Below, piece after piece: positions 17,778-44,051 of a stretch of 64,000 nucleotides of DNA. How positions within the stretch are numbered: position 1 is the first letter of the stretch; every line of letters starts with the position of its first letter. Made by a program: the position numbers and the translations under genes. This DNA is from Ruegeria sp. HKCCD8929 (GTDB lineage: Bacteria > Pseudomonadota > Alphaproteobacteria > Rhodobacterales > Rhodobacteraceae), in NCBI RefSeq assembly GCF_013031405.1, contig NZ_WPZY01000002.1, forward strand, positions 1 through 64,000, written 5' to 3'. The notes beneath the pieces are model-generated. The model was given only the letters and a program-made list of their open reading frames with translations. It was not told the DNA's origin and did not search any database.

Positions 17778-17882
17778 CCCGGTTTCTCGGCTCCTTTGCT
17801 GAAATCCCCCCGCGACGCTTGACGGGCTGGCCGTACCTGTTGGTATGCTAACGACAGCGGCATGCCGTCAGGGGAGGGTGCG

Positions 17883-19049
17883 ATGTCCGGTAAGCTAGTC
17901 ATCAGGAATATTGGCCTGATCCTGTCAGGCAAGATGGAACAGCCGATCCATGACGGCGATTGCGTGATCGCGGTGGATGGCAAGATTGCCGACTGGGGGT
18001 ATGAGAGCGACCTGGATACCGAAGAGGCGGATACGCTGGTCGATGCCCATGGCGTGACGCTCGCGTCGGGCCTGATCGACAGCCATGTACATCCGGTGGT
18101 GGGCGACTACACGCCGCGCCAGCAGCAGCTGCACTGGATCGACTCGACCCTGCATGGCGGCGTGACGACACTGATCTCTGCTGGCGAGGTGCATATGCCC
18201 GGGCGGCCCAAGGACGTTGTTGGCCTCAAGGCGATGGCGATCGCGGCGCAGCGCTGGTATGAGAATCTCCGCCCCTCGGGCGTCAAGGTTCATGCCGGGG
18301 CGCCGGTGATCGAACACGGCATGGTCGAGCAGGACTTCAAGGAGCTGGCCGATGCCGGTGTCAAGCTGCTGGGCGAGGTCGGCCTGGGCACCGTAAAGGA
18401 TGGCAAGACCGCGCGGCAAATGGTCGACTGGGCGCGCAAATATGGCATCCAATCCACGATTCACACCGGCGGGCCGTCGATTCCGGGCTCGGGCCTCATC
18501 GACGCGGATATGGTGCTTGAGACCGGAACAGATGTGATCGGCCACATCAATGGTGGTCATTCCGCCTTGCCGGACGATCAGATCATGTGCCTGTGCGAAA
18601 GCTGCACGGCGGGTCTTGAGATCGTGCATAACGGCAACGAACGCGCGGCGCTTCTGACCCTGAACACCGCGCGGGAACTCAAGCAGATGGACCGGATCAT
18701 TCTGGGCACCGACGGGCCTGCGGGCTCTGGCGTGCAGCCGCTGGGCATCCTGCGGATGGTGGCGATGCTGTCTTCACTGGGTGATGTCCCGGCCGAGATC
18801 GCGTTCTGCTTTGCCAATGGCAACACGGCGCGGCAGCGTGAGCTGGATACCGGTCTGATCGAGCGCGGCTATTGTGCCGATTTCGTTCTGATGGATCAGG
18901 CGCAGCACGCACCGGGCGCGACGCTGCTCGAGTCGGTGCAACTGGGCAATCTGCCCGGGGTCGGCATGACCGTCATCGACGGTGTCATCCGGTCCGAGCG
19001 CAGCCGCAACACGCCACCTGCCACCCGTCTGCCCGAGATCGTGTCTTAG
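17883..19049 (+). CDS. Enamidase-like metal-dependent amidohydrolase
   Basis: This 388-residue member of the amidohydrolase superfamily has the HxH metal motif (GLIDSHVHPVVGDY), a glutamate in KLLGEVGLG, histidines in STIHTGGPS and DVIGHINGGHS, and the catalytic aspartate in ILGTDGPAGSG. The text around these motifs matches enamidase (Ena), which in Eubacterium barkeri opens the ring of 1,4,5,6-tetrahydro-6-oxonicotinate. It is convergent, 9 bp from the MarR gene that ends an operon holding a 6-hydroxynicotinate-reductase-like protein and a molybdenum hydroxylase. That pairing supports a ring-opening role. The exact substrate is inferred. Confidence 0.8.
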   Translation: MSGKLVIRNIGLILSGKMEQPIHDGDCVIAVDGKIADWGYESDLDTEEADTLVDAHGVTLASGLIDSHVHPVVGDYTPRQQQLHWIDSTLHGGVTTLISAGEVHMPGRPKDVVGLKAMAIAAQRWYENLRPSGVKVHAGAPVIEHGMVEQDFKELADAGVKLLGEVGLGTVKDGKTARQMVDWARKYGIQSTIHTGGPSIPGSGLIDADMVLETGTDVIGHINGGHSALPDDQIMCLCESCTAGLEIVHNGNERAALLTLNTARELKQMDRIILGTDGPAGSGVQPLGILRMVAMLSSLGDVPAEIAFCFANGNTARQRELDTGLIERGYCADFVLMDQAQHAPGATLLESVQLGNLPGVGMTVIDGVIRSERSRNTPPATRLPEIVS

Positions 19050-19058
19050 GTCCCGACC

Positions 19059-19484
19059 TCAGGTGATCTTGCGCAGCAGCCGCACCAGACTGCGCTGCTC
19101 CGAGGCGCTGAGCGGGGCGAGCGTATCGGCGGTGATCGTATGCCCGGCCTCAAGCATCCGCGCCAGCAGTGCCTCTCCAGCGGCTGAGAGCGAAATCAGC
19201 GTGCGGCGTTTGTCGTCCGGGTCCGGTTCGCTGAGCGTCAGCCCCTTGTCGCGCAGCCGGTCGACCACCCCCTTGATGGTCGCCACATCCATCGCCGCAA
19301 GCCGCCCCAGGCGGTTTTGCGAGCACTTGCCCTGCTCGGAAATCCGCACCATGGCGGCGAACTGCGTGGCCGTCAGCCCCTCAAGCGTGTGGGCCTGAAA
19401 GATCGCGGCGTGCCGCTGACTGGCCAGCCGCAAAAGATACCCCACCTGATCGTCCAGAACATAAGTCGCGCTGTTGTCGGTCAT
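19059..19484 (-). CDS. MarR family transcriptional regulator
   Basis: The 141-residue protein has the MarR winged-helix core: QFAAMVRISEQGKCSQNRLG, then MDVATIKGVVDRLRDKGLTL, and the wing SEPDPDDKRRTLISLS. The ATG at 19484 has GAGGAA upstream. It starts 14 bp after livF and is the last gene of the long leftward operon, so it probably senses the transported compound or a breakdown product. It is convergent with the enamidase-like gene. Confidence 0.9.
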   Translation of the reverse strand: MTDNSATYVLDDQVGYLLRLASQRHAAIFQAHTLEGLTATQFAAMVRISEQGKCSQNRLGRLAAMDVATIKGVVDRLRDKGLTLSEPDPDDKRRTLISLSAAGEALLARMLEAGHTITADTLAPLSASEQRSLVRLLRKIT

Positions 19485-19498
19485 TCTCTGTTCCTCGG

Positions 19499-20200
19499 TC
19501 AAACCGCAAGATAGGCGTTCGAAACTTCGGGCTTGGCGTCAAGATCGGCAAAGCTGCCCTCATACCGCATGGCGCCCTTTTCGATGATATACGCCCGATC
19601 CGAGACGGCGCGGGCAAAATGCAGGTTCTGCTCGGACAAGAGCACCGACAACCCCTCGCGTTTCAACTCGGCGATAACCTGCGCCATCTGCTCGACAATC
19701 ACCGGCGCGATCCCTTCCGAGGGTTCGTCCAGCAGCACCAGTTTCGGATTGCCCATCAGGGTGCGGGCAATGCTCAGCATCTGCTGCTCGCCGCCCGAAA
19801 GCTGCTTGCCCAGATTGCGACGGCGCTCGCGCAGGTTCGGGAACAGCTCGTAAAGATGGTCCAGCGTCCATTCCGGCGCATCCGGGCGCGGGGCGCGGCG
19901 GCCGACCTCAAGATTTTCCTCGACCGTCAGATCGCCGAACACCCGCCGGTCCTCGGGCACGTAGCCAAGACCGGTGCGGCAGATGACGTGTGAGGGCTTG
20001 CCCAAAATCTCCTGCCCGTCATAGGTGACGTGCCCCTCGGTCTGCTGCACCAACCCCATGATCGACTTGATCGTCGTGGACTTGCCCGCGCCGTTGCGGC
20101 CCAGCAGCGCCACCACCTCGTTCTCGCCAAGGCTCAGCGACACACCGTTCAGGATCTGCGCGCGGCCATAGCGGGCGTTCAGGTCGGTGACCTCAAGCAT
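19499..20200 (-). CDS. livF: ABC transporter ATPase, LivF type
   Basis: This 233-residue ATPase of the branched-chain amino acid (HAAT) class has Walker A LLGRNGAGKSTT, signature LSGGEQQM and Walker B LVLLDEPSEGIAP. It overlaps the livG stop by 8 bp and completes the importer with LivG, the fused LivHM permease and the binding protein. In this operon the cargo is more likely an N-heterocyclic acid than an amino acid; that is inference from the neighbours. Confidence 0.93.
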   Translation of the reverse strand: MLEVTDLNARYGRAQILNGVSLSLGENEVVALLGRNGAGKSTTIKSIMGLVQQTEGHVTYDGQEILGKPSHVICRTGLGYVPEDRRVFGDLTVEENLEVGRRAPRPDAPEWTLDHLYELFPNLRERRRNLGKQLSGGEQQMLSIARTLMGNPKLVLLDEPSEGIAPVIVEQMAQVIAELKREGLSVLLSEQNLHFARAVSDRAYIIEKGAMRYEGSFADLDAKPEVSNAYLAV

Positions 20201-20966
20201 GGGCGCCCTCCTGCACAAAGGATGTGCCGCCGCCCAGATAGACCTCCTGCACCAGCGGGTTGGCGCGGATTTCAGCACCGCTGCCTTCGGCAATCAGCTC
20301 GCCCCGGTTCAGCACCAGAATGCGGTGGGCATGGGCAAAGACCACGTCCATGTCGTGTTCGGTGAAGACCACGCTGACACCGCCCTTGGCCACGATCTCG
20401 GCGGTCAGCGCCATCAGCGCGATCCGTTCCGAGGGCGCCATCCCGGCGGTGGGTTCGTCCATCAGCAAAAGCGCGGGCTCATGCGCCAGCGCGATGGCCA
20501 GTTCCAGCCGTTTCAGATCGCCATAGGCCAGTTCCGAACAGGCCCGCCGCGCCTGATCCTGCATTGACACCAGCTCCAGCAGTGCCATCGCCTGCTCGAC
20601 ATAGAGCCGCGTTGCGCGCGAGAACAGGTCAAAGACGCGGTGATGATGCGAGATCAGCGCCATCTGCACATTCTCCAGCACCGTCATCGACAGAAAGGTC
20701 GCCGTGATCTGAAAGGTCCGCCCGACCCCCATCCGCCATATCTTGCGCGGTGGGCGTCCAATCAGCTCGGCCCCGCGCAGCCGGACCGAGCCCGCATCCG
20801 GCCGCAGGTAGCCGTTGAGCATGTTGAAACAGGTGGTCTTGCCCGCGCCGTTGGGGCCGATCAGGGCCAGGAACTCACCCTCGGTCAGGTCGAAATCCAC
20901 GCCCCTAACCGCATGCACGCCATCAAAGCTCTTGGACAGGCCCCGCACCTCCAGAACATGGGTCAT
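20193..20966 (-). CDS. livG: ABC transporter ATPase, LivG type
   Basis: This 257-residue ATPase has Walker A LIGPNGAGKTTC, the LivG-typical extended loop (GVGRTFQITATFLSMTVLEN), a signature region ELAYGDLKRLELA and Walker B LLLMDEPTAGMAP. The usual LSGGxQ signature is replaced by LAYGDLKR, as is common in LivG proteins. The start overlaps the end of the permease gene by 4 bp. Confidence 0.93.
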   Translation of the reverse strand: MTHVLEVRGLSKSFDGVHAVRGVDFDLTEGEFLALIGPNGAGKTTCFNMLNGYLRPDAGSVRLRGAELIGRPPRKIWRMGVGRTFQITATFLSMTVLENVQMALISHHHRVFDLFSRATRLYVEQAMALLELVSMQDQARRACSELAYGDLKRLELAIALAHEPALLLMDEPTAGMAPSERIALMALTAEIVAKGGVSVVFTEHDMDVVFAHAHRILVLNRGELIAEGSGAEIRANPLVQEVYLGGGTSFVQEGAHA

Positions 20967-22807
20967 GCGGCACCCCCTTTCACGGCGCGCAACAGGCGCC
21001 GGACCCCGCCCGCGATGCCGTCCGGGGCCAGCAGCACGACGATCAGGATGATGGCGCCGAAGATGAACCGCCAATAATCCAGCCGCGTCACCCAATCCTC
21101 GATCATCACAAAGGCGACCGCGCCAAAGATCGGCCCGGCCAGCGCGTGTATACCGCCCAGAAGCACCATGATCAGCCCGTCGATGCTCTGCGCTATGCCG
21201 AGGCTGTCGGGAAAGACGCTGCCCTTGGAGAAGGCAAAGACCACGCCCGCGAGCCCGGCAAACCCTCCGGCCAGCGCAAAGCCCATCCATTGATGAAGAT
21301 TTGTGTTGATGCCTATGGCCTCGGCCCGGGTCTGACTGTCGCGGATGCCGCGCAGGGTATAGCCAAAGGGCGAATGCGCGGCGCGGCGCAGAAACCAGAT
21401 GCCGCCGATGCAAAGCACGAAAGCCACGTAGAAATAGACCTGATCCGAGCTTGCCCATTTCGCGGGCCACACCCCGAGGATGCCGTCATCCCCGCCGGTG
21501 AAATCCTGCCACTGAAAGGTGACACCCCAGAGGATTTGTGCCGCTGCCAGCGTCAGCATTGCCAGATACACGCCGGAAAGGCGGACACAGAACCAGCCGA
21601 AGAAGATCGCCGCCGTCGCCGCGCAGACGGGGCCGAAGACCATTGCCGGAAGCATACCGAAGTCGAAGAATTTAACCGCCATCGCCGCCCCATAGGCGCC
21701 GACGCCGAAATAAGCGGCGTGGCCGAAACTCACCATGCCGCCGATGCCCATCATGAAATGCAGCGATACGGCAAAGAGCGTGGCGACCATCACATCGACC
21801 AGCAGGATCATGGTGAAGTCTGCAGCGACCGCCGGGCTCAGCGCCAGCAGGGCGACGGCAGTGGCCAGCACCATGGCCGAGCGCTGGCTCATCAGCGTCA
21901 GCGGCTGGTCAGGCTCTTCCGGCGCCCCATGCTCACTGCCCGGTTTGCCGAACAGGCCATAGGGGCGCACGATCAGCACCACCGCCATGACGACAAAGGG
22001 CAGCACGATGGAGATTTGCGGAAAGACCAGAATGGCAAAGGCATTCAGGACCGAGATCAGGACGGCGGCCACGAAGGCGCCCGAGACGCTGCCCATGCCG
22101 CCGATCACCACAACGACGAAAGCCTCGCCGATGATCGAGAGGTCCATCTGCAGCGATACCGCCTCGCGCGGGATTTGCAGCGCGCCGCCGAGACCGGCAA
22201 GGAACGCGCCCAGCACAAAGGCGGCAGAGAAAAGCCACGCCTGATTGACACCCAGCGCGCCCACCATCTCGCGGTCTTGTGTGGCGGCGCGGACCAGCAC
22301 GCCCCAGCGGGTGCGGTGGAACAGAAGCCAGATCGCCAGCAGCACGGCGGGGCCGATGGCGATCAGGGCAAGGTCATATTCTGGGATCGGCTCGCCCATG
22401 ATCCGCACCGCGCGGTCGAGCCCCGGTGCGCGTGGGCCCAGCAGGTCCTCGGCGCCCCAGATCGCCAAGGTAACGTCCTGCACGATCAGAACTACCCCGA
22501 ACGTGGCGACCAGTTGGAACAGCTCCGGCGCCTTGTAGATACGGCGCAGGATGGTCAGCTCGATCACCAGCCCCAGCAGCCCCACGGCAGCGGCAGCAAG
22601 GATCACGCCGCCCCAGAAGCCCAGCACACTGCCGCTCCACATCGTCACCAGCGTGTAGGTCAGGTAGGCGCCCACCATGTAGAACGAGCCATGGGCGAAA
22701 TTCACGATCCGGGTGACGCCGAAGATGATCGACAGCCCCGAGGCGATCAGAAACAGGGACGAGGCGTTGGCCAGCCCGGTCAGCAACTGCGCGAAGTAAA
22801 AGCCCAT
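20963..22807 (-). CDS. Fused LivH-LivM permease of a branched-chain-type ABC importer
   Basis: One 614-residue chain carries both permease subunits. Residues about 1-295 are LivH (GLSIIFGVTRIVNFAHGSFY near the start, VVVVIGGMGSVSGAFVAAV later), and residues about 325-605 are LivM (FMMGIGGMVSFGHAAYFGVG, then RDSQTRAEAIGINTNLHQWM). In most operons these are two genes. A hydrophilic linker (KPGSEHGAPEEPDQPLT) joins them. There is no internal stop or frameshift, so this is a true fusion giving a fixed 1:1 pair. Confidence 0.93.
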   Translation of the reverse strand: MGFYFAQLLTGLANASSLFLIASGLSIIFGVTRIVNFAHGSFYMVGAYLTYTLVTMWSGSVLGFWGGVILAAAAVGLLGLVIELTILRRIYKAPELFQLVATFGVVLIVQDVTLAIWGAEDLLGPRAPGLDRAVRIMGEPIPEYDLALIAIGPAVLLAIWLLFHRTRWGVLVRAATQDREMVGALGVNQAWLFSAAFVLGAFLAGLGGALQIPREAVSLQMDLSIIGEAFVVVVIGGMGSVSGAFVAAVLISVLNAFAILVFPQISIVLPFVVMAVVLIVRPYGLFGKPGSEHGAPEEPDQPLTLMSQRSAMVLATAVALLALSPAVAADFTMILLVDVMVATLFAVSLHFMMGIGGMVSFGHAAYFGVGAYGAAMAVKFFDFGMLPAMVFGPVCAATAAIFFGWFCVRLSGVYLAMLTLAAAQILWGVTFQWQDFTGGDDGILGVWPAKWASSDQVYFYVAFVLCIGGIWFLRRAAHSPFGYTLRGIRDSQTRAEAIGINTNLHQWMGFALAGGFAGLAGVVFAFSKGSVFPDSLGIAQSIDGLIMVLLGGIHALAGPIFGAVAFVMIEDWVTRLDYWRFIFGAIILIVVLLAPDGIAGGVRRLLRAVKGGAA

Positions 22808-22870
22808 TCGGTCTTGGTCCCCGTTTCATTTGTCCGGCGGCGAGGCTCTGTGCACCCCGCCGCAGGGGCT

Positions 22871-24082
22871 TTATTCCGCGGGCCGCATCCCGGCGGCTTC
22901 TTCTTCGGACGGCAGGTAATCCGCGCCATCGGCATAGGACCAATCCACCATCACCGGGTTGCCATCGACCAGCCCGGTCTTGCCCACATAGGCGCCCATG
23001 GTCGACTGGTGATCGGCGGCGCGGAAGGTGAAGGGGCCGGTCGGACTGCTCTCGACGGTCAGACCCTCCATCGCGGCCAGCAGCGCCTCGGTCTCGGTCG
23101 AGCCCGCTTTTTCCAGCGCGGCAGCGATGGCCAGCACCGAGTTGTAGCCCACGATCGAGCCGGTCTTGGGCTCTTCCCCGAACTTCTCGATATAGGCTTC
23201 GGCAAAGGCTTTGTGCTCGTCGGTGGCGATATCGGTGGCCGGGTAGCCGGTGACGATCCAGCCCTTGGGCGCCTCGCCTGCCAGCGGTTGCAGATACTCC
23301 GGCTCACCGGTCAGCAGCGAGACCACATCGCGATCTTCGAACAGGAAGCGCAGCGAGCCTTCGCGGACGAACTTGGCCAGATCGCCGCCGAAGGTCACGT
23401 TGAAGATCGCATCAGGCTTCGAGGCCTCAAGCGCCCGCACGGTGCTGCCCGCGTCGATCTTGAAGACCGGAGGCCATTGTTCCTCGACAAATTCCACATC
23501 AGGGCGCAGCTTGCTGAGCTCGCGCTTGAAGGCGGCCACGGCGTCCTGCCCGTAGGCATAGTTCGGCGCCACGGTGGCCCATTTCACTGCGTCCAGCTTG
23601 GCGGCCTGCTCGGCCAGCATCGCAGCCTGCATATGGGTCGAGGGGCGCAGGCGATAGGTGTATTTGTTGCCCTTGGACCAAACGATGGCATCCGACAGCG
23701 GTTCCGAGGCCAGAAACAGCACCTCTTTCTGCTTGGCGAAGTCCGAGACTGCCAGGCCAATGTTCGACAGGAAGGTGCCAAAGATCAGCACTGCGCCTTC
23801 TTTCGAGACCAGTTCCTCGGCAATCCGGATCGCGGTGGCCGGGTCGCCGGTGTCGTCGCGGCTGATCACCTCAAGCTGCTTGCCGCCGACGCCACCTGCC
23901 GCGTTGATCTGTTCGACCGCCAGTTGCCAGCCTTTTTTGTAGGGCTCTGTGAAGGCTGGGAGGCGGGTGTAGCTGTTTACTTCGCCCAGCACGATGGTGT
24001 CCGCCGCGTGGGCCTGCGGGGTTAGTGCCGCAAGGGGAAGGGCGGCGAGTGCACCCAGCACGGTGCGTCTGATCAGGGTCAT
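22871..24082 (-). CDS. ABC transporter substrate-binding protein (Leu/Ile/Val-binding type)
   Basis: This 403-residue periplasmic type I binding protein has a twin-arginine-like or Sec signal (MTLIRRTVLGALAALPLAAL, cleavage after AHA, about residue 27). The mature part has GWQLAVEQINAAGGVGGKQL and DTGDPATAIRIAEELVSKEG, standard for amidase/amino-acid-type sensors. The ATG at 24082 has GGAGG upstream. It lies 63 bp before the fused permease and feeds the importer. Confidence 0.92.
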   Translation of the reverse strand: MTLIRRTVLGALAALPLAALTPQAHAADTIVLGEVNSYTRLPAFTEPYKKGWQLAVEQINAAGGVGGKQLEVISRDDTGDPATAIRIAEELVSKEGAVLIFGTFLSNIGLAVSDFAKQKEVLFLASEPLSDAIVWSKGNKYTYRLRPSTHMQAAMLAEQAAKLDAVKWATVAPNYAYGQDAVAAFKRELSKLRPDVEFVEEQWPPVFKIDAGSTVRALEASKPDAIFNVTFGGDLAKFVREGSLRFLFEDRDVVSLLTGEPEYLQPLAGEAPKGWIVTGYPATDIATDEHKAFAEAYIEKFGEEPKTGSIVGYNSVLAIAAALEKAGSTETEALLAAMEGLTVESSPTGPFTFRAADHQSTMGAYVGKTGLVDGNPVMVDWSYADGADYLPSEEEAAGMRPAE

Positions 24083-24171
24083 GTCATGTCCTCCTGTTGA
24101 TCTTGTTTCGCGGCCAGTTGTGCCCGGCTTCTGCGTGGTTGTCAGTGCCAAAGTGACGCAAGGTCATGCGG

Positions 24172-24753
24172 TTAGCGCAAACCGTCCTTCCCCTCGGCCT
24201 CATCCGTCGTCAGCCCGCCGACGCGGGGCAGGGGGCGGCCGCTGTCGGTGACGGCCACGGCAACCATGATTTCACCTGCGCGCGGCGCGTCGTTCAGGCG
24301 TACCTCGATGCCGTCGAAATGGCTGCGGACATAAGCGGCGTCCTTGTGGCCCAGCGGCACGTCCAGCACCTGCCCGGAGCTGCCCATCTTCTTGGACGAC
24401 GGCACCAGTGCCGCGCCTTTCTCGACTTCTTTGCGCAGCGGTGCGCCAAGCTTGGGATGCAGGATTGCGGCCGCATGTTCCAACTCGCCATTCTCGCCCA
24501 CCATGGCGGATTTCCCATAACTTTCAGCCTGTTCCGGGGCGATGCCCAATGCCTCGACACAGCGGCGGCCCAGCAGGGCACCCAGCTCGGCGCCGGTTTC
24601 CATCAGCTCGGACAGGTCGTCGACATAACGCCCGGCGCAGGGATTTTCGATCACCGCCACGGCGACGGCCTTGCGGGTGGGCGGGGCGATGTCGCGGCCC
24701 GCCTCGATATGGGTTTCCTCGACATTCACGGCGATCTTGCGAATCTTGGTCAT
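24172..24753 (-). CDS. DUF1185 'amino acid synthesis' family protein, copy 2
   Basis: The 193-residue protein belongs to PF06684 (DUF1185), which has a Bacillus chorismate-mutase-like fold and no proven enzyme activity. Family motifs are SYGKSAMVGENGELEHAAA, LVPSSKKMGSSG, AAYVRSHFDGIEVRLNDAPR and AGEIMVAVAVTDSGRPLPRV. It overlaps the preceding paralog by 4 bp, so the two are translated as a pair and may form a heteromer. Context suggests a step in catabolism of a nitrogen heterocycle. Confidence 0.87.
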   Translation of the reverse strand: MTKIRKIAVNVEETHIEAGRDIAPPTRKAVAVAVIENPCAGRYVDDLSELMETGAELGALLGRRCVEALGIAPEQAESYGKSAMVGENGELEHAAAILHPKLGAPLRKEVEKGAALVPSSKKMGSSGQVLDVPLGHKDAAYVRSHFDGIEVRLNDAPRAGEIMVAVAVTDSGRPLPRVGGLTTDEAEGKDGLR

Positions 24754-25331
24754 CTCAGTCCGTCCTCTCCCTTGATCTGCCAGGCCTCGAGCCCGCCCGA
24801 GCGGGAATGGATGCGCGGGCCGGTCGTCATCACCAGAGCGAAAGCAAGCTCATCGGCGCGCGGGGCGTCGTTGCAGCCGACCTCCATACTGTCGAAATGG
24901 CTGCGCACGTAGGCGGCGTTGATATGGGTGATCGGCACATCGAGGCGCGCGCCTAACCCACTGACTTTCTTTGAAGAAGGCACGATCGCATTGGCCTTGC
25001 CCAGAAGCTGGCGCATGGCGTATCCGCCCGGCGCGTGCCACAGCGCGCCGTGTTCCAGCTCCCCGCCCTCGCCGATCAGGGAGCCCTTGCCGTAGCCTTC
25101 GACGGTCTCAGGCCCGCCCAGCATGTCGAGCAGCTTTTGTGCCATTTGCAGGCCGAGGGGTTTGAGGTCTTCCATAAACGATTGAATTTCAGTCACATAA
25201 CCCCCGGCGAACGGGTTGGATATGATGGCCAGAACCGAGGCGCGGCGCAGCGGTGTGTCGGAGACCGGGCCGCCCTCGTGGTAGATTTCTTCGAGCGAGG
25301 AGACGGTTTTTCGCAGCACGACATCAGGCAT
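24750..25331 (-). CDS. DUF1185 'amino acid synthesis' family protein, copy 1
   Basis: This 193-residue paralog of the next gene shares the blocks GYGKGSLIGEGGELEHGA, IVPSSKKVSGLG, NAAYVRSHFDSMEVGCNDAP and a common C-terminal GEDGLR ending. Overall the two differ strongly elsewhere, so this is not a recent duplication. I use the ATG at 25331 (GGAG 10 bases upstream) rather than a TTG at 25340. It overlaps the end of the UPF0280 gene by 8 bp. The Ser-Ser-Lys-Lys block shared by both copies is a candidate active site. Confidence 0.87.
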   Translation of the reverse strand: MPDVVLRKTVSSLEEIYHEGGPVSDTPLRRASVLAIISNPFAGGYVTEIQSFMEDLKPLGLQMAQKLLDMLGGPETVEGYGKGSLIGEGGELEHGALWHAPGGYAMRQLLGKANAIVPSSKKVSGLGARLDVPITHINAAYVRSHFDSMEVGCNDAPRADELAFALVMTTGPRIHSRSGGLEAWQIKGEDGLR

Positions 25332-26187
25332 GTTCGGCAATCTCCGTTCGGTTCGGGGCGACCATGTCGCGGCCTCCTGCCTGGCAGGACTGGCCGCGCA
25401 GGGTCAGGTGCGCGGCGCGTATTGTGTTCGTTTTGTACATGTCCTGCGCCACCTTATGTCCGTTTTGTACAGCCCGCCAAACCTCGTTTTCGGTCAGATC
25501 GCCGCAATGGGTCACGACCGGCCGACTGCCCAGATCGCTGTCGTCGCGCAGCTCGTTGGCGGCGACGCGCCGGATCGCCGGATGGCCGGGCAGGTCCACC
25601 GCGTTGGCGATGAACGTGGCGGCCACATCCGCCGCTGCCGCGTTGCGGGCGAGGACCGTGACGCTGTCGGCGATGCCGAGGCTGAGGCTGCGCCCGCCGA
25701 GGCCCGAGGTGGCGAGGCCTTTGATCCCGTCCGAGGCGTGGAGGGCGATGCGGCCAAGGTCCCTACCGCCGAGATCGCGCATCGCCATCGAGAATGTCTC
25801 GTCTCCGGTCAGATGAATGGCGATGTCGCCGCCGTTGTTCACATAGGCGCGGCGCAGGGGGGTGGCCTGTGTCATGACATCCAGCACCTCATCGGCGACG
25901 GCTCCGGCGACGGCGGCCATGCGGGTGACGAAACTGGCGGCATGAGAGCGGGTGGCTCGGTCCATCCGGCGCGCGACGCGGCCTGACGGTTCCGGTGCGT
26001 CCGGTGTCATCGGTGCGCGCAGCGTTTGCAGCTCGTCAACCAGTTCCTGCAGGATGGTGTCGAACCGGGCGCGGGCGGCCTCGAAAGCGCGGGCGCGGTT
26101 CCCGTCTGCCCCGATGATCAGGTCGATCGGCCCGTGCTGCAGATGCAGCCGGGTCCCGCAGGGCAATATGGCGGCCACCGGTCCCAT
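25324..26187 (-). CDS. UPF0280 family protein (ApbE superfamily)
   Basis: The 287-residue product matches UPF0280, a group placed with ApbE-like FMN transferases. Visible landmarks are AAVAGAVADEVLDVMTQATP, RAYVNNGGDIAIHL, LATSGLGGRSLSLGIADSVT and RAAHLTLRGQS. True ApbE attaches FMN to a Thr/Ser of a target protein; UPF0280 has no proven activity. It starts 1 bp after the 6-hydroxynicotinate-reductase-like gene, so a role in maturing that redox enzyme is possible. Confidence 0.85.
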   Translation of the reverse strand: MGPVAAILPCGTRLHLQHGPIDLIIGADGNRARAFEAARARFDTILQELVDELQTLRAPMTPDAPEPSGRVARRMDRATRSHAASFVTRMAAVAGAVADEVLDVMTQATPLRRAYVNNGGDIAIHLTGDETFSMAMRDLGGRDLGRIALHASDGIKGLATSGLGGRSLSLGIADSVTVLARNAAAADVAATFIANAVDLPGHPAIRRVAANELRDDSDLGSRPVVTHCGDLTENEVWRAVQNGHKVAQDMYKTNTIRAAHLTLRGQSCQAGGRDMVAPNRTEIAEHA

Positions 26188-26188
26188 G

Positions 26189-27670
26189 TCACCTCGCCCA
26201 GCGGTAGTTCTTGCGGTCCATCGGGTCGGACTTCGTGTCCTCGGGCGTCACCTTGCGGTCGCTGTCCGAGACCACCTGCGCGACCGGCGTGATCTGATCC
26301 ATATGCCCGCCGAGCGCCTGATAGTCGCTGACCCGCATGGTGAACTCGATGGGGGCGACCAGCGCCGGGGTGGGGACGTAGCCGAAGGATTGCGTGGGCA
26401 TGTCCAGCACATCCACCATCACCGTGATGCCGCCGCCGGGCCAGACATAGCTGTCGGCGCCGCCGCAGGAGACATAGGCCAGCGAATCCTTGACCGAGCG
26501 GGTCAGGCGCACCGGGTTCTCGGTGACGCCCGCGCGCAGCGACCCGCCCGCGCCGCCCATGAACAGGACCGAACAGACCGAGGGTTCGCAGTTTTCGGCG
26601 ATCAGGTCGGCGGAGGCCTTGAGCGCTTGCGGAACCTCTGCCGGTTGCGGGGTCAGGTCGGCGTCCAGTTCGAAATAGGCATATTGCTCACCCGTGGTCG
26701 ATACCATTAGCAGGCGCAGGCCGGGCCAGGCGACCTCGGGCTTGAACGTGTTCAGGATCACCAGCGGGTCGGTGATGTCGGTGCCGCCCCAGCCGGTGCC
26801 CGGCTCGGCCACCTGAAAGTAACGCCCCGGGGTGGAGCGGCGGCCCTTGATGCGGATGCCGGTGGGCGGCACGTCCAGCATCTTGCCCGCCTGATGTTCG
26901 CTGAGCACGCCGGTGATGTGATCGTCGACCACCACCACCTCGTCCGCGTGGCCCATCCATTGCTTGGCGAACATGCCGATGGCGGCAGAGCCGCAGCCGA
27001 CGCGCATCAGCTTTTCCTCGATCCCGTTTATGATCGGGGCCTGGCCCGCCTGCACGATCACAGTCGTTTCATGTTCGGGCTCACCGATCACCATCTCAAC
27101 CGCCTCGCGGTTGCAGAGCCGGAGCAGAGCGTCGCAGGTCACGCGGCCCTCTTTCTTGGAGCCGCCCGTCAGGTGCTCGACCCCGCCGAGCGACAGCATC
27201 TTGGAACCGTATTCCGAGGTCATCACATGGCCGATGGGCTCGCCCTCGACCCGCACCACGTCGCGTTCGTGGCCTATATGGCGGTCGGTGTCGATCTTCA
27301 CCTTGACCCCGCAATAGGAGAAGATGCCCTCGGTCACGACGGTGACCATGTCGACGCCCGCGACCTCCTGGCTGACGATGAAGGGGGCCGGTTTGTAGTC
27401 GGGATAGGTGGTGCCTGCGCCCACGGCGGTGACGAAGGGGCGGCTGCCTTGCAGGATGTCGCCATCCCATTCGTCGGGGCGGGCGTCCTTCATGAAGGGG
27501 ACAAGTTTCTGGTCGGTGTGTTCGATCACCGTCAGCGCGTCGAGCCTTACCAGCGTGCCGCCGTGATTGGCGTAGCGGTCGCAGGCGCCCGAGCGGCCTT
27601 CGGCGATGTAGCAGAGCACCGGGCAGGCGTCGCAGCGGATCTTTTCCGGTTTCATGCGCTCAGCGGTCAT
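26189..27670 (-). CDS. 6-Hydroxynicotinate reductase-like Fe-S protein
   Basis: The 493-residue protein resembles 6-hydroxynicotinate reductase (Hnr) of the reductive nicotinate route. Near the N-terminus Cys13, Cys16, Cys20 and Cys30 (IRCDACPVLCYIAEGRSGAC) form a plausible iron-sulfur site. Later blocks include VVTEGIFSYCGVKVKIDTDR, PPTGIRIKGRRSTPGRYFQ and SCGGADSYVWPGGGITVMVD. In the known pathway Hnr reduces 6-hydroxynicotinate with reduced ferredoxin. The gene overlaps the molybdenum hydroxylase stop by 11 bp. Substrate and electron donor here are inferred. Confidence 0.82.
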   Translation of the reverse strand: MTAERMKPEKIRCDACPVLCYIAEGRSGACDRYANHGGTLVRLDALTVIEHTDQKLVPFMKDARPDEWDGDILQGSRPFVTAVGAGTTYPDYKPAPFIVSQEVAGVDMVTVVTEGIFSYCGVKVKIDTDRHIGHERDVVRVEGEPIGHVMTSEYGSKMLSLGGVEHLTGGSKKEGRVTCDALLRLCNREAVEMVIGEPEHETTVIVQAGQAPIINGIEEKLMRVGCGSAAIGMFAKQWMGHADEVVVVDDHITGVLSEHQAGKMLDVPPTGIRIKGRRSTPGRYFQVAEPGTGWGGTDITDPLVILNTFKPEVAWPGLRLLMVSTTGEQYAYFELDADLTPQPAEVPQALKASADLIAENCEPSVCSVLFMGGAGGSLRAGVTENPVRLTRSVKDSLAYVSCGGADSYVWPGGGITVMVDVLDMPTQSFGYVPTPALVAPIEFTMRVSDYQALGGHMDQITPVAQVVSDSDRKVTPEDTKSDPMDRKNYRWAR

Positions 27671-30407
27671 GGCTTTGCTCTCGGATAGCGGCCCGCAGGC
27701 GCGCGGGCGTGGCGGGAACCTCGGTGATCTGCACGCCGCAGGCATCGCGAATGGCGTTGAGCAGGGCCGGGGCGGTCGGGATCAGTGCATGTTCGCCCAG
27801 CCCCTTGGCGCCATAGGGGCCGTGGGCGTCCGGTTCCTCGATGATGATGGTGTCGATGGGCGGGATGTCCCCGATGGTGGGGATCAGGTAGTCATGCAGG
27901 TTCTCGGTGGTGCCGGGGAGGTATTCCTCCATCAGTGCCATGCCGAGGCCCTGGGCGATGCCGCCTTCGACCTGGCCCTCGACCAGCAGCGGGTTGATGG
28001 CGCGGCCGACGTCATGGGCGGCGGTGAAGCGGAGCGGTGTGACGGTGCCCATGCGGGTATCGACCTCGATCACCGCCAGATGCGCGGCATAGCCGAACTG
28101 GGCGTAGGGAATGCCCTGTCCGTTTTCGTCGAGCGGTCTGGTGGGCGGGTCATAGGTTTCCTCGGCGCGCAGGACGTAGCCTTCGCTGTTCCGGGGCAGG
28201 GCGGTCAGGTCGATGTCGTGGGAGTCGCCCCGGTCGGTGATGCGGATCGTGCCGGTGTGGATGTTCAGTTGCGCGCCTGTGCTGGCATTGACGCGGGAGA
28301 GGATTTGCGCCCGGAGCGCTTCGCCCGAGAGCCGCGCGGCGTTACCCGAGACATAGGTCTGGCGCGAGGCCGAGGTTTTGCCGCCATCCGGGGTGACGTC
28401 GGTGTCGGGGCCGATCAGGTGCAGGGTGTCCACGGGCACTCCGAGCGCGGTGGCGAAGATCTGGGCGATGACGGTGTTGGCGCCCTGGCCGATATCCATG
28501 GCGCCCTGGTGCAGCATGACGGTGCCGTCGGCGCGGATGCCGGACTTGATGGTCGAGGGGTTGGGCAGCGAGGTGTTGCCGCAGCCGTACCAACCCGCCG
28601 CCACGCCGACACCGCGTTTGATTGTGCTGTTCTGCGCGTTGAATGCGGCGGTGGCGGTGCGTTCGCGGTCCCAGGCGTGGCGTAACGCTTCGAGGCAGGC
28701 GCGGATGCCGACACCCTGGTCGAACACCTGCCCGCAGACGGTCTGGGTGCCGTTTTCCAGCGCATTGCGGATGCGGAAGTCCAGCCGGTCGATGCCCAGC
28801 GTGTCGGCCAGTTCGTCGAACAGGCCTTCCTGTGCGATGGCGGCCTGTGGCACGCCGAAGCCGCGGAAGGCGCCGGCGGGCGGGTTGTGGGTGTGGATGC
28901 CTTTGGCCTCGGCGCGATAATCAGCTACGCGGTAGGGGCCCGAGGCGTGGACGGGCACGCGGTTGGCCACGGTCGGTCCCCAGCTGGAATAGGCGCCGGT
29001 GTTGAAGAGGCCGTCGAAGGTGAACCCGCTGAGCTGGCCGTTCCGGGTCGCGCCGATGCGGAGGCGGAGATCGGAAGGGTGCCGCTTGGTGGTGGCCTGC
29101 ATCGACTCGGTGCGCGAATAGGTCAGGCGCACCGGCTTGCCGGTTTTGAGCGTGGCGAGCGCCAGATAGGGCTGCACCGACAGATCGAGCTTGGCGCCGA
29201 AGCCGCCGCCCACCGCCGTGGGGATGATGCGGACCTGAGAGCGGTCCGTCCCGAGGATATCGGCGAGTGATTCCTGATCCATCACCGGGGCCTGGGTGCA
29301 GGCATGGACTTCGACCCGTCCGTTGGCCATTTGGGCGAAACCTGCCTCGGGCTCGATATAGGCGTGTTCGACGAAACCGCTGTGGTAATGGCCTTCGACC
29401 ACCGTGTCCGCCTGCGCCAGCGCGGCCTCGGGATCGCCGCATTGCACCAGCCCGGCGCACATCAGGTTGCCCTCGCGCCCGCCGTGCAGGAGAGGGGCTT
29501 CGGGGGCCATGGCTTCGGCCACATCGTCGACCGGGGGGCGTTCGTCCCAGGTGACCGGGAACCGGGCCGGGTCGAATGTGGCGATCGCCTCGGGAGTGCC
29601 GACGATGGCGGCGACCGGGTCGCCGCGGAATCGCGCCTCGGTCTCGGCAAAGACCGGCTGGTCGATGAAATCGGGGATGGTGCCGAACAGGTTGCGGCCC
29701 GGGATATCGGCGGCGGTCAGGACGGTTTCGATGCCATCGGTGGCGGCGACATAGGCGTCGAGATCGCCGAGTGTGAACCCGGCGCGGGGGTAGGGAGAGC
29801 GGATCAGCCGAACCTCCAATGTTCCGGCGGGCGCCACGTCGTCGCCGTAGAGCTCATTCCCTGCGACCTTGGCCAGCCCGTCCAGACGCGGGATGGCGGC
29901 GCCGACCTCGCCGCTGGGCGGAACTGGCGGAGTGTTCCCGACCTCCATCACCGCGCGGATGATCTTGCGGTATCCGGTGCAGCGGCAGAGCACGCCTCCG
30001 AGGGCGTCCTTGACCGCGAGCTTGTCTGGGTCAGGCGTGCGGCGCAGGAGGGCCAGTGCGGCGACCATCATGCCCGGCGTGCAGATCCCGCATTGCGCCG
30101 CCCCATGGGCCTGAAAGCTGTCGGCCAGTTGCTGCATAAGGGGGTCGCTCTGCATGAACCCGGCCAAGGTCTCCACCGCGCGCCCCTCGGCCTGATGCGC
30201 GGGCATCAGGCAGGCGCAGACCGGATCGCCGTCGACCAGGACGGTGCAGGCGCCGCAATCACCTGCGTTGCAGCCGATCTTGACGTCGCGCGCATCCAGC
30301 CGTTCGCGCAGGGTTTCGGAGAGGCGTTCGCCCACGCGGGGGCGGGGGCTGACGGGCAGGCCGTTCAGCGAGAAACCGACAGTGTCGTTCTCAACCCGCC
30401 GGTCCAT
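27660..30407 (-). CDS. Molybdenum hydroxylase with fused 2Fe-2S and molybdopterin domains (xanthine dehydrogenase family)
   Basis: This 915-residue fusion has residues 1-155 as the small iron-sulfur subunit, with Cys46/51/54/66 for the plant-type cluster and Cys106/109/141/143 for the second cluster (CGICTPGMM...CRCTGY). The rest is the Mo-binding large subunit (PTAVGGGFGAKLDLSVQPYL, GAFRGFGVPQA, then YGAKGLGE with the catalytic glutamate). Such enzymes hydroxylate a ring carbon next to nitrogen with water as oxygen source. Paired with Hnr- and enamidase-like genes, nicotinate or a similar ring is a plausible substrate. The FAD subunit gene overlaps it upstream by 17 bp. Confidence 0.88.
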   Translation of the reverse strand: MDRRVENDTVGFSLNGLPVSPRPRVGERLSETLRERLDARDVKIGCNAGDCGACTVLVDGDPVCACLMPAHQAEGRAVETLAGFMQSDPLMQQLADSFQAHGAAQCGICTPGMMVAALALLRRTPDPDKLAVKDALGGVLCRCTGYRKIIRAVMEVGNTPPVPPSGEVGAAIPRLDGLAKVAGNELYGDDVAPAGTLEVRLIRSPYPRAGFTLGDLDAYVAATDGIETVLTAADIPGRNLFGTIPDFIDQPVFAETEARFRGDPVAAIVGTPEAIATFDPARFPVTWDERPPVDDVAEAMAPEAPLLHGGREGNLMCAGLVQCGDPEAALAQADTVVEGHYHSGFVEHAYIEPEAGFAQMANGRVEVHACTQAPVMDQESLADILGTDRSQVRIIPTAVGGGFGAKLDLSVQPYLALATLKTGKPVRLTYSRTESMQATTKRHPSDLRLRIGATRNGQLSGFTFDGLFNTGAYSSWGPTVANRVPVHASGPYRVADYRAEAKGIHTHNPPAGAFRGFGVPQAAIAQEGLFDELADTLGIDRLDFRIRNALENGTQTVCGQVFDQGVGIRACLEALRHAWDRERTATAAFNAQNSTIKRGVGVAAGWYGCGNTSLPNPSTIKSGIRADGTVMLHQGAMDIGQGANTVIAQIFATALGVPVDTLHLIGPDTDVTPDGGKTSASRQTYVSGNAARLSGEALRAQILSRVNASTGAQLNIHTGTIRITDRGDSHDIDLTALPRNSEGYVLRAEETYDPPTRPLDENGQGIPYAQFGYAAHLAVIEVDTRMGTVTPLRFTAAHDVGRAINPLLVEGQVEGGIAQGLGMALMEEYLPGTTENLHDYLIPTIGDIPPIDTIIIEEPDAHGPYGAKGLGEHALIPTAPALLNAIRDACGVQITEVPATPARLRAAIREQSHDR

Positions 30408-31233
30408 CAGACCCTCCCGCCGTTTTGATGGCCCGCAGGCATTGCTCGGCCACCGCGTCCAGCCGGTAGGCACCGCTGGCCCGCACATCGTCGATGGGGC
30501 TGAGCGGGCGCAGATGGTCCGGGGTCACAACAGCCGCGTCGGGTGTCACGCCGGTCAGTTCCGACTCCAACCGGTGCAGGCGCTGGGCGGTTGCCGAACA
30601 GGCGCCGACCGCCACCCGGGCGTGGGCAATCCGCCCGGCATCTTCGAGTGCGATCAGAGCCGCCGTCATCGTGATCGAAATCACCAGATATCGCCGCGCG
30701 CCCAGCTTTTCGAAGCTGCCGACCGCCCCGGCGGGCGGTTCGGGCAGCACGAGCGCGGTCACCATCTCATCCCCGGTGAGCGCAGTGCGGCGCACGCCGG
30801 TGATGAAATCGGTCAGGGGCAGGGTGCGTAGACCCTTGGCCGAGGCGATCTCGACCTGCGCCCCGAGCGTCAGGAGCGGCGGCACCCCGTCGGCGGCGGG
30901 TGAGGCGTTGCAGAGATTGCCCACCACGGTTCCGGCGTTCTGGATCTGGATACCGCCCACTTCGCGCGCGGCGGCCTGAAGCCCGGCAAAGGCGCGGGGC
31001 AGGTTGGCCTGGGCAATGTCGCTCCATCGGGTCGCGGCGCCGATGCACCAGCCCGTGTCGTTGCGGGTGATACCGCGCAGCCCGGCGATGCGGGTGATGT
31101 CCAGCAGGTCGGTCTGGCGCGCGCCATCCCTGCGCGAGGGGTAGAAATCGGTGCCTCCGGCGACGATCCGGACCTGACCCGCGGACAGGCGGTCCAGTGC
31201 TTCGTCCAACTCGGTCGGCGCGAAATAGTGCAA
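30391..31233 (-). CDS. FAD-binding subunit of a molybdenum hydroxylase
   Basis: The 280-residue protein is the medium FAD subunit of the xanthine dehydrogenase family, with VRIVAGGTDFYPSRRDG near the N-terminus, VGGIQIQNAGTVVGNLCNAS for FAD pyrophosphate and a C-terminal CODH-like domain. I place the start at TTG 31233 (MHYFAPTELDEALDRLSAG) because this gives the family's normal N-terminus and has GGGGAG 9 bases upstream; longer ATG readings add unrelated residues. It is first in the leftward catabolic operon and divergent from a LysR gene. Confidence 0.87.
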   Translation of the reverse strand: MHYFAPTELDEALDRLSAGQVRIVAGGTDFYPSRRDGARQTDLLDITRIAGLRGITRNDTGWCIGAATRWSDIAQANLPRAFAGLQAAAREVGGIQIQNAGTVVGNLCNASPAADGVPPLLTLGAQVEIASAKGLRTLPLTDFITGVRRTALTGDEMVTALVLPEPPAGAVGSFEKLGARRYLVISITMTAALIALEDAGRIAHARVAVGACSATAQRLHRLESELTGVTPDAAVVTPDHLRPLSPIDDVRASGAYRLDAVAEQCLRAIKTAGGSDGPAG

Positions 31234-31269
31234 ACGTCCGATCTCCCCCCAAAGGTCAATCTCGTTAGT

Positions 31270-31296
31270 ATGCGAATGATATTGATCGAATCGCAT
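31270..31296. promoter_or_regulatory. Dyad in the molybdenum hydroxylase-LysR divergent region
   Basis: ATGCGA (31270-31275) and TCGCAT (31291-31296) are perfect 6-bp arms separated by 15 bp of AT-rich sequence. The dyad lies 37 bp before the FAD-subunit start and 100 bp before the LysR start. The size suits a LysR activation site for the leftward catabolic operon. Confidence 0.5.
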
Positions 31297-31395
31297 TTCT
31301 GTCAACGGCGGGCTTCGCCGCCCTGCGGCAACAGGGGTTTCACCCGGTGCCGCCATCGCTATTGTAAGGCCGGACCCGGCCCGAGGACTACCCAA

Positions 31396-32277
31396 GTGAT
31401 CGAACTGCGTGACCTGCAACTGCTCAGCGCCCTGGCGCGGCATCGCCATTTCGCCAAGGCGGCCGAGGAATGCGGTATTTCGCAGCCTGCGTTTTCAATG
31501 CGTATCCGCAATCTGGAGGATCGGCTGGGCCTGTCCATCGTGCGCCGCGCCAACCGGTTTCAGGGCCTGACCGAAGAGGGCGAGATGATCGTGCGCCGCG
31601 CCCGCCGCATTCTGGGGGACACCAAGGCGCTGGAGCAGGAGGTGGCGTCGATCCGGGGCGAGATTTCCGGCGCGCTCATCCTTGGGGTGATCCCGACGGC
31701 GCTGGCCTTTACCGGACGGCTGGTGCGCCGGCTGCATCAGGCGCATCCCAAGATCGTGGCGCGGATCGATTCGATGTCCTCGACCGCGATCCAGCAGGGT
31801 CTGGACGATGGCACGATCGACGCGGGCGTCACCTATGGCGACAGTATCGGCACCGATCTGCGGCATGTGCAGCCGCTGTATGAGGAAAGCTATGTCCTGT
31901 TGGTGCCGTCGCATATGACCGACGAGACCGGCCCGATTCCCTGGGCGCGGGTGGCCGAGTTTCCGCTGTGCCTGCTGGAGCCGCAGATGCAGAACCGCCG
32001 CATTCTGGACCGGATCTTTGCCGAGCTGGGCCTGCATCCGCGGGTGGTGGCCGAGACCAGCGGGTTTACCGCCGCCATGGTGATGGCGCGTGAGGGGCTG
32101 GCCGCGGCGGTGGTGCCGCGCGTGCTGATCCGGGCGCTGGGCGATCCGGCGGGGACGACGGTGTTGCCGCTGGTCGAGCCGGAGGTGTCGAAACCGATCT
32201 GTCTGGCGACCCTGGATCGCGATCCGGAGCTGCCGACCGTGGCGGCGTTGCGGCGTGTGGTATCCTCTTTAAGGTGA
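31396..32277 (+). CDS. LysR family transcriptional regulator
   Basis: The 293-residue LysR protein starts at GTG 31396 (VIELRDLQLLSALARHRHFA), which gives the normal N-terminal winged helix; earlier starts would add odd residues. The effector domain follows from residue 90. It lies between the divergent molybdenum hydroxylase operon and the co-directional fdsB, 86 bp upstream. LysR genes next to fds operons commonly control formate dehydrogenase, so its target could be either side or both. Dyads exist on both sides. Confidence 0.9.
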   Translation: MIELRDLQLLSALARHRHFAKAAEECGISQPAFSMRIRNLEDRLGLSIVRRANRFQGLTEEGEMIVRRARRILGDTKALEQEVASIRGEISGALILGVIPTALAFTGRLVRRLHQAHPKIVARIDSMSSTAIQQGLDDGTIDAGVTYGDSIGTDLRHVQPLYEESYVLLVPSHMTDETGPIPWARVAEFPLCLLEPQMQNRRILDRIFAELGLHPRVVAETSGFTAAMVMAREGLAAAVVPRVLIRALGDPAGTTVLPLVEPEVSKPICLATLDRDPELPTVAALRRVVSSLR

Positions 32278-32354
32278 TAATTTGTCGTTATCGTGCGATT
32301 GAGTTTTGCGATTTGACGATATGATGAGCTGATGAGAGACGGGGATCTCAATCG
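32276..32354 (+). promoter_or_regulatory. fdsB upstream region with dyads
   Basis: GATAA (32276-32280) and TTATC (32288-32292) form a short dyad overlapping the lysR stop, and CGATTGAG (32296-32303) is repeated inverted as CTCAATCG (32347-32354) just before the fdsB ribosome site (GGAGGG). These could be LysR sites or a leader stem. No clear -35/-10 pair was assigned. Confidence 0.4.
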
Positions 32355-32363
32355 GAGGGCATC

Positions 32364-34067: not shown

Positions 34068-34092
34068 GGATGCGCTTCGATCCGATCTCTAG

Positions 34093-34140
34093 CCCGGCGG
34101 GTACCGCCGGGCAGCGCCCGACCCGCCCCCATGGGGCGGG
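34093..34140 (+). repeat. Two tandem GC-rich hairpins between fdsB and fdsA
   Basis: CCCGGCGG (34093-34100) pairs with CCGCCGGG (34104-34111) around GTA; CCCGCCCC (34122-34129) pairs with GGGGCGGG (34133-34140) around a 3-nt loop. Both are perfect 8-bp stems in the 138-bp gap. They may protect or process the mRNA, or act as a weak terminator to set subunit ratios. No T-run follows. Confidence 0.65.
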
Positions 34141-34205
34141 CGCTTCTCGCCCACCCCTCGGGCCGGGCGCCGCCCTCATTTTCACGTTCGCCACGGAGGT
34201 GCGCC

Positions 34206-43899: not shown

Positions 43900-44051
43900 G
43901 GCACGGCTCCAAACTGCCCCAACTCGCGAATATCCGCTGCCGCGCAACTGACTCGCGGCTCAATATCCGTCAGTTAGATCATCCGGGCGCCGGGATGAAA
44001 AGAGCCTTGGCGTCTATCTTGGGTCGCGGGGTCTGGTGGGGCCCGCCGCGG

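Follow-up and report, generated by a model that had tools for sequence, protein, structure and literature searches.

A probable aerobic reductive nicotinate catabolic operon in Ruegeria sp. HKCCD8929 and the close association of its 6-hydroxynicotinate reductase with a UPF0280 protein

In the 64-kb stretch of contig NZ_WPZY01000002.1 of Ruegeria sp. HKCCD8929 analysed here (hereafter the window, to which all coordinates refer), 11 genes form a leftward unit that extends from position 31233 down to position 19059, and an enamidase gene converges on it. This unit is very probably an aerobic reductive nicotinate catabolic operon, with the substrate, the order of the reactions, and the electron donor predicted from sequence. 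The observations behind this assignment are the gene content and gene order, the homology of the encoded proteins, a palindrome common to both promoters, and the strict co-occurrence of 6-hydroxynicotinate reductase (Hnr) with a UPF0280 protein. The window is a further example of a route described in a handful of soil bacteria, and the cluster is not new in kind; what is new relative to the known clusters is the very tight link between Hnr and UPF0280.

Gene content and the predicted pathway

Nicotinate would be imported by the LivK/LivHM/LivGF transporter and converted to 6-hydroxynicotinate by a molybdenum (Mo) hydroxylase that consists of a flavin adenine dinucleotide (FAD) subunit (30391-31233, minus strand, TTG start; FAD_binding_5) and a fused 2Fe-2S/molybdopterin subunit (27660-30407, minus strand; MoCoBD_1/2, Fer2_2), the presumed nicotinate hydroxylase. 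Hnr (26189-27670, minus strand) would then reduce the ring to 1,4,5,6-tetrahydro-6-oxonicotinate, perhaps with electrons from a ferredoxin-NADP reductase, and the enamidase, an amidohydrolase (17883-19049, plus strand, from the ATG through the stop codon), would release ammonium from this compound by hydrolysis, leaving 2-formylglutarate. The latter would be decarboxylated and oxidised to glutarate, which would yield glutaryl-coenzyme A (glutaryl-CoA) and then acetyl-CoA; the enzymes for these steps would be encoded at other places in the genome. The UPF0280 protein (25324-26187, minus strand) would mature Hnr, possibly by covalent flavin attachment; the two DUF1185 proteins would take over once the ring is open, with 2-formylglutarate or the preceding enamine as their substrate; and the MarR-family regulator (PF01047; 19059-19502, minus strand) would repress both convergent units via the common 14-bp palindrome.

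All twelve genes are present, in agreement with the earlier note on this DNA, which had described 11 leftward genes facing an enamidase-like gene. Its statement that short gaps and overlaps run throughout holds for 8 of the 10 junctions in the leftward unit, each within 17 bp when the starts and junctions were checked individually: overlaps of 17 bp (FAD/Mo), 11 bp (Mo/Hnr), 8 bp (UPF0280/DUF1185a and LivG/LivF), and 4 bp (DUF1185a/DUF1185b, LivHM/LivG, and LivF/MarR), and a 1-bp gap (Hnr/UPF0280). It had overlooked, however, the two larger gaps that flank the binding-protein gene, 89 bp (DUF1185b/LivK) and 63 bp (LivK/LivHM); a scan of the minus strand in these two gaps detected no terminator-like sites. 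The enamidase and MarR genes are separated by 9 bp.

The enamidase is homologous over its full length to the Eubacterium barkeri enamidase (PDB entry 2VUN), with 43.6% identity (167 of 383 aligned residues). No other PDB entry matches it strongly (the next best has an E value of 0.0018), and Pfam detects an Amidohydro_1 domain (1.4e-9). The sequences DSHVH, GEVGLGT, IHTGG, HINGG, and GTDGP, which we take to be the metal-ligand-bearing motifs of the enamidase, are all retained relative to 2VUN. In 15 relatives, HTGG and HINGG are each found in 15 of 15 as exact patterns, GxD in 13, and HxH and GEVGLGT in 12 each, so not all of them are invariant. Because of this identity, and of the candidates for the glutarate steps found in the genome (see below), nicotinate is the likely substrate.

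The transporter comprises the LivK-type binding protein (22871-24082; Peripla_BP_6, 6.6e-67), a fused LivH-LivM permease with two BPD_transp_2 stretches (20963-22807), and two ATP-binding cassette (ABC) ATPases, of the LivG type (20193-20966; ABC_tran, BCA_ABC_TP_C) and the LivF type (19499-20200; ABC_tran), all on the minus strand. The solved chain 3I45 shares 61.2% identity with the binding protein; its ligand, reportedly nicotinic acid, is not used as evidence.

Searched against Pfam, the Hnr of the window gave no hit even at an E value of 10, and its best PDB relative is no better than E 0.13; weak Pfam matches in two of its relatives (GCV_T_C, 0.0008 and 0.01; LapA, 0.05) were set aside. 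The name is supported by the NCBI annotation of plasmid-borne relatives: among 26 plasmid records with Hnr, the 12 listed are 74.7 to 79.5% identical to the window protein, and 9 of these 12 are annotated as "6-hydroxynicotinate reductase" and 3 as "hypothetical protein." Eight cysteines are invariant in 27 aligned Hnr sequences; an AlphaFold2 model built from the 27 sequences reached a mean pLDDT (the per-residue confidence score of the model) of 50.3 and was discarded. The N-terminal cysteine motif (model positions about 15 to 52) also weakly matches open reading frames (ORFs) on G009:C31, G202:C111, G295:C119, G190:C1, and G061:C3 (G and L numbers denote genomes and loci in the collection, and C numbers contigs); four of these five are frames of 366 to 382 amino acids, and a shared Fe-S domain is possible.

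The E. barkeri fermentation likewise employs a Mo hydroxylase, Hnr, and enamidase but is anaerobic, and its later steps are a reduction and a B12-dependent mutase, in contrast to the decarboxylation and the glutarate route predicted for the window. Clusters of this kind have been described in Azorhizobium, Bradyrhizobium, Rhodopseudomonas, and strain SG-6C (PMC3511419). According to that paper, nicotinate supports growth of the Bradyrhizobiaceae strain SG-6C, in which 6-hydroxynicotinate was observed, and the strain has its cluster in common with Azorhizobium caulinodans, whose nicotinate route via glutarate is cited there. As in the window, the Azorhizobium/Bradyrhizobiaceae cluster brings together a Mo hydroxylase, Hnr, and a ring-opening hydrolase and includes an ABC transporter, whereas the hydroxylase type, the ring opener, and the gene order differ between the clades. 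The terms "UPF" and "amino acid synthesis" were not found in the main text of PMC3511419.

A shared palindrome, exchangeable modules, and downstream steps

The two promoters of the window have a 14-bp palindrome, GTTNGTATGCNAAY, in common. Perfect operator-like copies are located at 17839-17852 (GTTGGTATGCTAAC), 30 bp 5' of the enamidase start codon, and at 31264-31277 (GTTAGTATGCGAAT in plus-strand letters), where the palindrome touches the -10 hexamer of the sigma-70-like promoter of the operon (TTGACA-18-TATCAT; 31276-31305, minus strand; 11 of 12 matches). Promoter-like sites as such are at chance level (2 in 14 kb versus 2.0 expected); both hexamers of the operon promoter are conserved in an alignment of loci L009 to L013. 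With at most one mismatch, the palindrome has 3 matches in the 64 kb, compared to 0.21 expected. A copy with one mismatch lies far from the operon, at 5279-5292 (minus strand).

An Hnr scan of the genome collection, in which only close relatives are detectable, yielded 45 loci. The wider form of the palindrome, GTTNGYATRCNAAY, has 56 perfect sites in the 933,202 bases of the 46 sequences (these loci and the window), where 10 Markov simulations gave 0.8 on average. The pattern was derived from the window and L009 to L013; these six sequences hold 12 of the 56 sites, and the remaining 44 fall in the other 40 loci, among which are many mutually close relatives. Most of the sites (49 of 56) are close to the starts of ORFs of the pathway families, that is, from -130 to +260 bp from the start of an ORF of a labelled family; the window site at 31264 falls outside the 49, the FAD ORF having been taken from an earlier start. 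The palindrome precedes HyuA in all 9 rhizobial loci and the enamidase in 12 of 16 cases. There are 12 sites at FAD starts, 4 at the ferredoxin-NADP reductase with 5 more at an adjoining ORF (family c46, uncharacterised), 3 at the cytochrome-type hydroxylase, 3 at Hnr, and 1 at a CoA-transferase. Two Sulfitobacter plasmid clusters, fetched later, carry 4 perfect palindromes, all just 5' of the FAD gene or between the enamidase and ferredoxin-NADP reductase genes. The palindrome thus appears to mark a single regulon and to tie the enamidase gene to the operon. MarR, which shares 44% identity with the MarR protein from a Sulfitobacter plasmid cluster, is its obvious, albeit presumed, reader.

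In relatives, individual steps seem to be exchangeable. Among the 45 loci and the window, enamidase is found in 16 of 46 sequences and the HyuA/HyuB pair in 9 rhizobial loci, where it stands after DUF1185 and no enamidase is present in the stretches examined; none of the sequences has both, and 21 have neither in the stretch examined. HyuA is also found together with Hnr and UPF0280 in 8 of 15 further stretches (L140 to L154), which were picked mostly for lacking DUF1185 near Hnr and are not a random sample. The best-matching family of HyuAB is the caprolactamase CapA/CapB, with scores (484 and 323 bits) well below the cut-off of 1000. Since tetrahydro-6-oxonicotinate requires the opening of a cyclic amide, HyuAB is a plausible ring opener, and its distribution suggests that ring opening can be performed by two unrelated enzymes, enamidase or HyuAB.

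The hydroxylase varies as well. Five loci (L026 and L038 to L041) have, near Hnr, a 2Fe-2S plus Mo-cytochrome-c pair in place of the window-type hydroxylase; one plasmid homolog of this pair (66.8% identical) is annotated as nicotinate dehydrogenase NicB/NicA. Many relatives have a ferredoxin-NADP reductase gene close to the cluster. In L017, L019, L020, L032, L033, L037, L045, and L156, a gene for a Rieske oxygenase of the VanA type separates the core from the Liv transporter. Clusters like that of the window also occur on 92-kb and 178-kb Sulfitobacter plasmids (NZ_CP069007.1 and NZ_CP084962.1; L155 and L156). As the 26 plasmid records mentioned above carry Hnr, the route may spread between replicons.

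The chemistry downstream of ring opening, which the earlier note could only say must differ from that of E. barkeri, has a known model in the Azorhizobium glutarate route, and candidate enzymes are encoded both in the genome and beside the cluster in relatives. In some relatives, a family III CoA-transferase gene is found near the enamidase or MarR gene, and an acyl-CoA dehydrogenase gene follows that of HyuB, DUF1185, or ferredoxin-NADP reductase. The L009 CoA-transferase scores best with the succinate--glutarate CoA-transferase family (523 bits, cut-off 750). The genome of HKCCD8929 encodes a CoA-transferase that is 58% identical to it and has the same best family (592 bits, cut-off 750). 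The genome also encodes an acyl-CoA dehydrogenase that is 83% identical to one near the L025 cluster; for the latter, glutaryl-CoA dehydrogenase is only the fourth-best family and is below its cut-off. These candidates fit the sequence from glutarate through glutaryl-CoA to crotonyl-CoA without proving it.

Several observations count against the assignment as a nicotinate operon. The Mo subunit, a fused member of the xanthine dehydrogenase family, resembles xanthine and aldehyde dehydrogenases and scores under every NCBIfam cut-off, so that its substrate is assigned from the gene context. The acyl-CoA dehydrogenase of the genome has the FadE model as its best match, with glutaryl-CoA dehydrogenase second (224.5 bits, cut-off 470) and both scores below their cut-offs, and both downstream candidates are located on other contigs, with no perfect palindrome in the stretches examined. 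The palindrome is not universal, being absent from 12 of the 15 stretches L140 to L154, and the stretches examined in L119, L130, and L131, all from the genome of HKCCD8929 itself, have no perfect copy.

The operon might instead serve another pyridine (picolinate, trigonelline, or 6-chloronicotinate) or a pyrimidine. The Mo subunit is not diagnostic, and the Rieske oxygenase of some relatives could prepare a substituted substrate, yet nicotinate is favoured by the families to which the enamidase and Hnr belong, by the observations on SG-6C (PMC3511419), and by the NicAB-type hydroxylases in five relatives, and the same genome has a separate trigonelline-type cluster (see below), which leaves the other substrates improbable. 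The claim of the earlier note that a pyridine- or pyrimidine-type acid is imported, hydroxylated, reduced, and hydrolytically opened in one co-regulated pathway is supported, with the palindrome linking the enamidase to the operon, and the ring acid can be narrowed to nicotinate, which is much the likeliest. In two Ruegeria papers, a search for "nicotinate" and for SPO locus tags led to no more than one line on pncB and one on nadC.

Hnr and its UPF0280 partner

The UPF0280 protein of the window matches model NF003322, a family that we take to be COG2122, with 364 bits (cut-off 290). Proteins of this family and of the DUF1185 family accompany Hnr beyond chance expectation: 41 and 42 of the 45 Hnr loci, respectively, carry them in the stretches around Hnr. 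Of the four loci without UPF0280, two (L042 and L048) belong to genomes that have a copy at another site. For L048, this is a second locus (L149) that has no 60-mer in common with the first, where genes for DUF1185a/b and the Mo and FAD subunits accompany UPF0280 and Hnr is missing. In both Sulfitobacter records examined, Hnr adjoins genes annotated as "UPF0280 family protein" (one) and "amino acid synthesis family protein" (two).

At the genome level, the co-occurrence is strict. With strong matches defined as E 4e-121 or better for Hnr and 8e-38 or better for UPF0280, the genomes with Hnr are exactly those with UPF0280, both among the 289 genomes of the class (44) and among the 398 of the phylum (32). 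The combined sets comprise 72 distinct genomes, 71 of which have the two genes on a single contig, with gaps of -13 to 563 bp (median, 47). Weak matches were excluded, namely, those to Hnr in G061 and G190 (E 7e-4 and 2e-4, confined to the cysteine motif at model positions about 15 to 52) and those to UPF0280 in G017, G151, G577, and G649 (5e-7 to 6e-4); including them, the tallies are 46 and 46 of 289 and 32 and 34 of 398 for Hnr and UPF0280, respectively. Among the 44, Hnr is split in two in G036 and partial in G239, and UPF0280 is fragmented in G072, G095, and G202; in G072 and G095, where it is split across contigs, the gap was taken from the piece on the Hnr contig.

A profile comparison with hhalign relates UPF0280 remotely to the flavin transferase ApbE (probability 94.4, E 8.6e-8, 98 columns; unrelated control pairings, 0.1 and 0.7), with an alignment that spans the GGD, ATSG, and ADxxxT regions. 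The HIIDPxTG segment of ApbE (H-I-x-D-P-x-T-G) has no counterpart in this alignment, and for this reason UPF0280 is not classed as ApbE. The Hnr of E. barkeri reportedly contains covalent flavin, which makes flavinylation of Hnr the simplest role for UPF0280. We give about even weight to the proposal that UPF0280 serves specifically to mature Hnr and, most simply, installs or helps install a covalent flavin. Besides the identical distribution in the 72 genomes, the tight spacing, and the likeness to ApbE, this proposal is favoured by L050 and L053, where UPF0280 lies beyond the hydroxylase genes, on the opposite side, and by the genome of L048, which has both proteins encoded at nonadjacent sites.

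COG2122 is also described in PMC5764234, which makes the same HIIDPxTG reservation on its likeness to ApbE, as working with DUF39 in homocysteine synthesis in Desulfovibrio. That system (COG2122, DUF39, and NIL-ferredoxin) resembles the window in that COG2122 is required beside another enzyme, and differs in the partner, which is DUF39 there and Hnr here. DUF39 was found in none of the 289 genomes of the class, while the same search was positive in 3 of 14 control genomes, which further favours the maturation of Hnr. A DUF39 kinship of Hnr was considered and dropped, as Pfam shows no match and DUF39 is absent from the class sample. The main alternative to the flavin role, that UPF0280 serves Hnr through sulfur or Fe-S chemistry, such as persulfide delivery, draws on the role suggested for COG2122 with DUF39 in PMC5764234 and on the eight invariant Hnr cysteines; it is rather unlikely, as the relationship to ApbE favours flavin and Hnr has no similarity to DUF39 in Pfam.

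Some findings also weigh against a dedicated maturation role. Co-inheritance within the operon could produce much of the co-occurrence, and the 72 genomes are not independent events. In the stretch examined of L052, DUF1185 comes right after Hnr with no UPF0280 in between, on a contig that begins inside Hnr, and the genome G302 (L031), whose Hnr gene sits at the edge of a 5.4-kb contig, has no UPF0280. With these points included, it is a tentative suggestion, held at somewhat less than even weight, that UPF0280 represents a new type of cofactor-installing protein, similar to ApbE but without HIIDPxTG, that matures Hnr and whose same activity would explain the need for COG2122 with DUF39. Literature searches, which covered few subscription papers, turned up no publication linking UPF0280 to Hnr.

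The DUF1185 pair and neighboring genes

DUF1185 and UPF0280, listed in the earlier note as unassigned parts, can be given testable roles, although that of DUF1185, in handling the ring-opening product, is the less certain of the two. DUF1185 proteins a (24750-25331) and b (24172-24753; both on the minus strand) match PF06684 (AA_synth) at 3e-72 and 4.1e-67, above the Pfam gathering score, and match the fold of 3BYQ/2QTP; they are 44% identical to each other and have the same invariant columns in a 21-row alignment. DUF1185 is present in all 16 enamidase-bearing sequences, window included. Among the 44 Hnr-encoding genomes of the class, 26 have it within 10 kb of Hnr (two copies in 12 and one copy in 14) and 18 have none that near; in G072, G095, and G239, DUF1185 is beside UPF0280 on another contig, which brings the count near Hnr to at least 29 of 44. 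Five of the 44 have no DUF1185 anywhere, and all five have HyuA around Hnr.

A third DUF1185 gene of the genome (L119:9576-10178, in G000:C1:317500-337000) stands in a run with genes for an alpha/beta hydrolase, a flavin reductase, a luciferase-type monooxygenase, and an aldehyde dehydrogenase, a gene set that we take to be the make-up of a trigonelline cluster. The run adjoins genes for an M20 peptidase, a diaminopropionate ammonia-lyase-like protein, and an EutA/arylmalonate decarboxylase-like protein. The nicotinate and trigonelline routes would both pass via a 2-formyl-dicarboxylate, and this shared step makes decarboxylation of 2-formylglutarate the first guess for the DUF1185 pair; hydrolysis of a 3-aminoacrylate-type enamine is the second choice. 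Overall, a role of the pair on the ring-opening product is a possibility to which we assign well under even weight. It is favoured by the third copy in the trigonelline-type run, by the presence of DUF1185 in all enamidase-bearing sequences, and by TgnF, a homolog of DUF1185 that, according to PMC7913881, stimulates the TgnE-dependent oxidation of succinic semialdehyde. The fold look-alikes of DUF1185 include Rid proteins and RutC, although these matches (Z scores of 5.5 to 6.6) are tied with many other rows and reflect only a common arrangement. The enamine variant is further weakened by the E. barkeri enamidase, which reportedly yields 2-formylglutarate by itself. HcdD, a DUF1185-type protein, belongs to a 7-hydroxycoumarin gene set, and efforts by its authors to obtain a stimulating effect were reportedly unsuccessful; together with the five DUF1185-free genomes, it speaks against a single indispensable role for DUF1185.

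The idea that DUF1185 is a one-domain relative of cyclic amide hydrolases was rejected: barbiturase and similar proteins (Z scores of 5.5 to 5.7) match no better than chorismate mutase, kinase, and OmpA-like rows. The DUF1185 protein SPO0826 of Silicibacter (Ruegeria) pomeroyi, solved as 2QTP, is encoded within SPO0822-SPO0826, where, as in the window, a DUF1185 gene is next to a branched-chain-type ABC transporter (PMC2954203). Amino acid synthesis was inferred by the authors of that study, in contrast to the nicotinate catabolism proposed here.

A LysR gene of the window diverges from the operon, and the genes after it encode a fused NuoE/NuoF-like protein and a molybdopterin oxidoreductase, which together resemble a formate dehydrogenase pair (31228-36986, plus strand). 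TamB- and Omp85-like genes occupy positions 38009-43947, and a protein with a urate oxidase N-terminal domain (PF06181, 4e-135; 44052-45281, minus strand) is another N-heterocycle gene within the window.

Nicotinate is a likely source of both carbon and nitrogen for Ruegeria sp. HKCCD8929 and for those relatives that have the cluster on plasmids, and the palindrome provides a sequence signature for the regulon. Through its link to Hnr, COG2122 gains a defined client protein on which its function can be tested directly.

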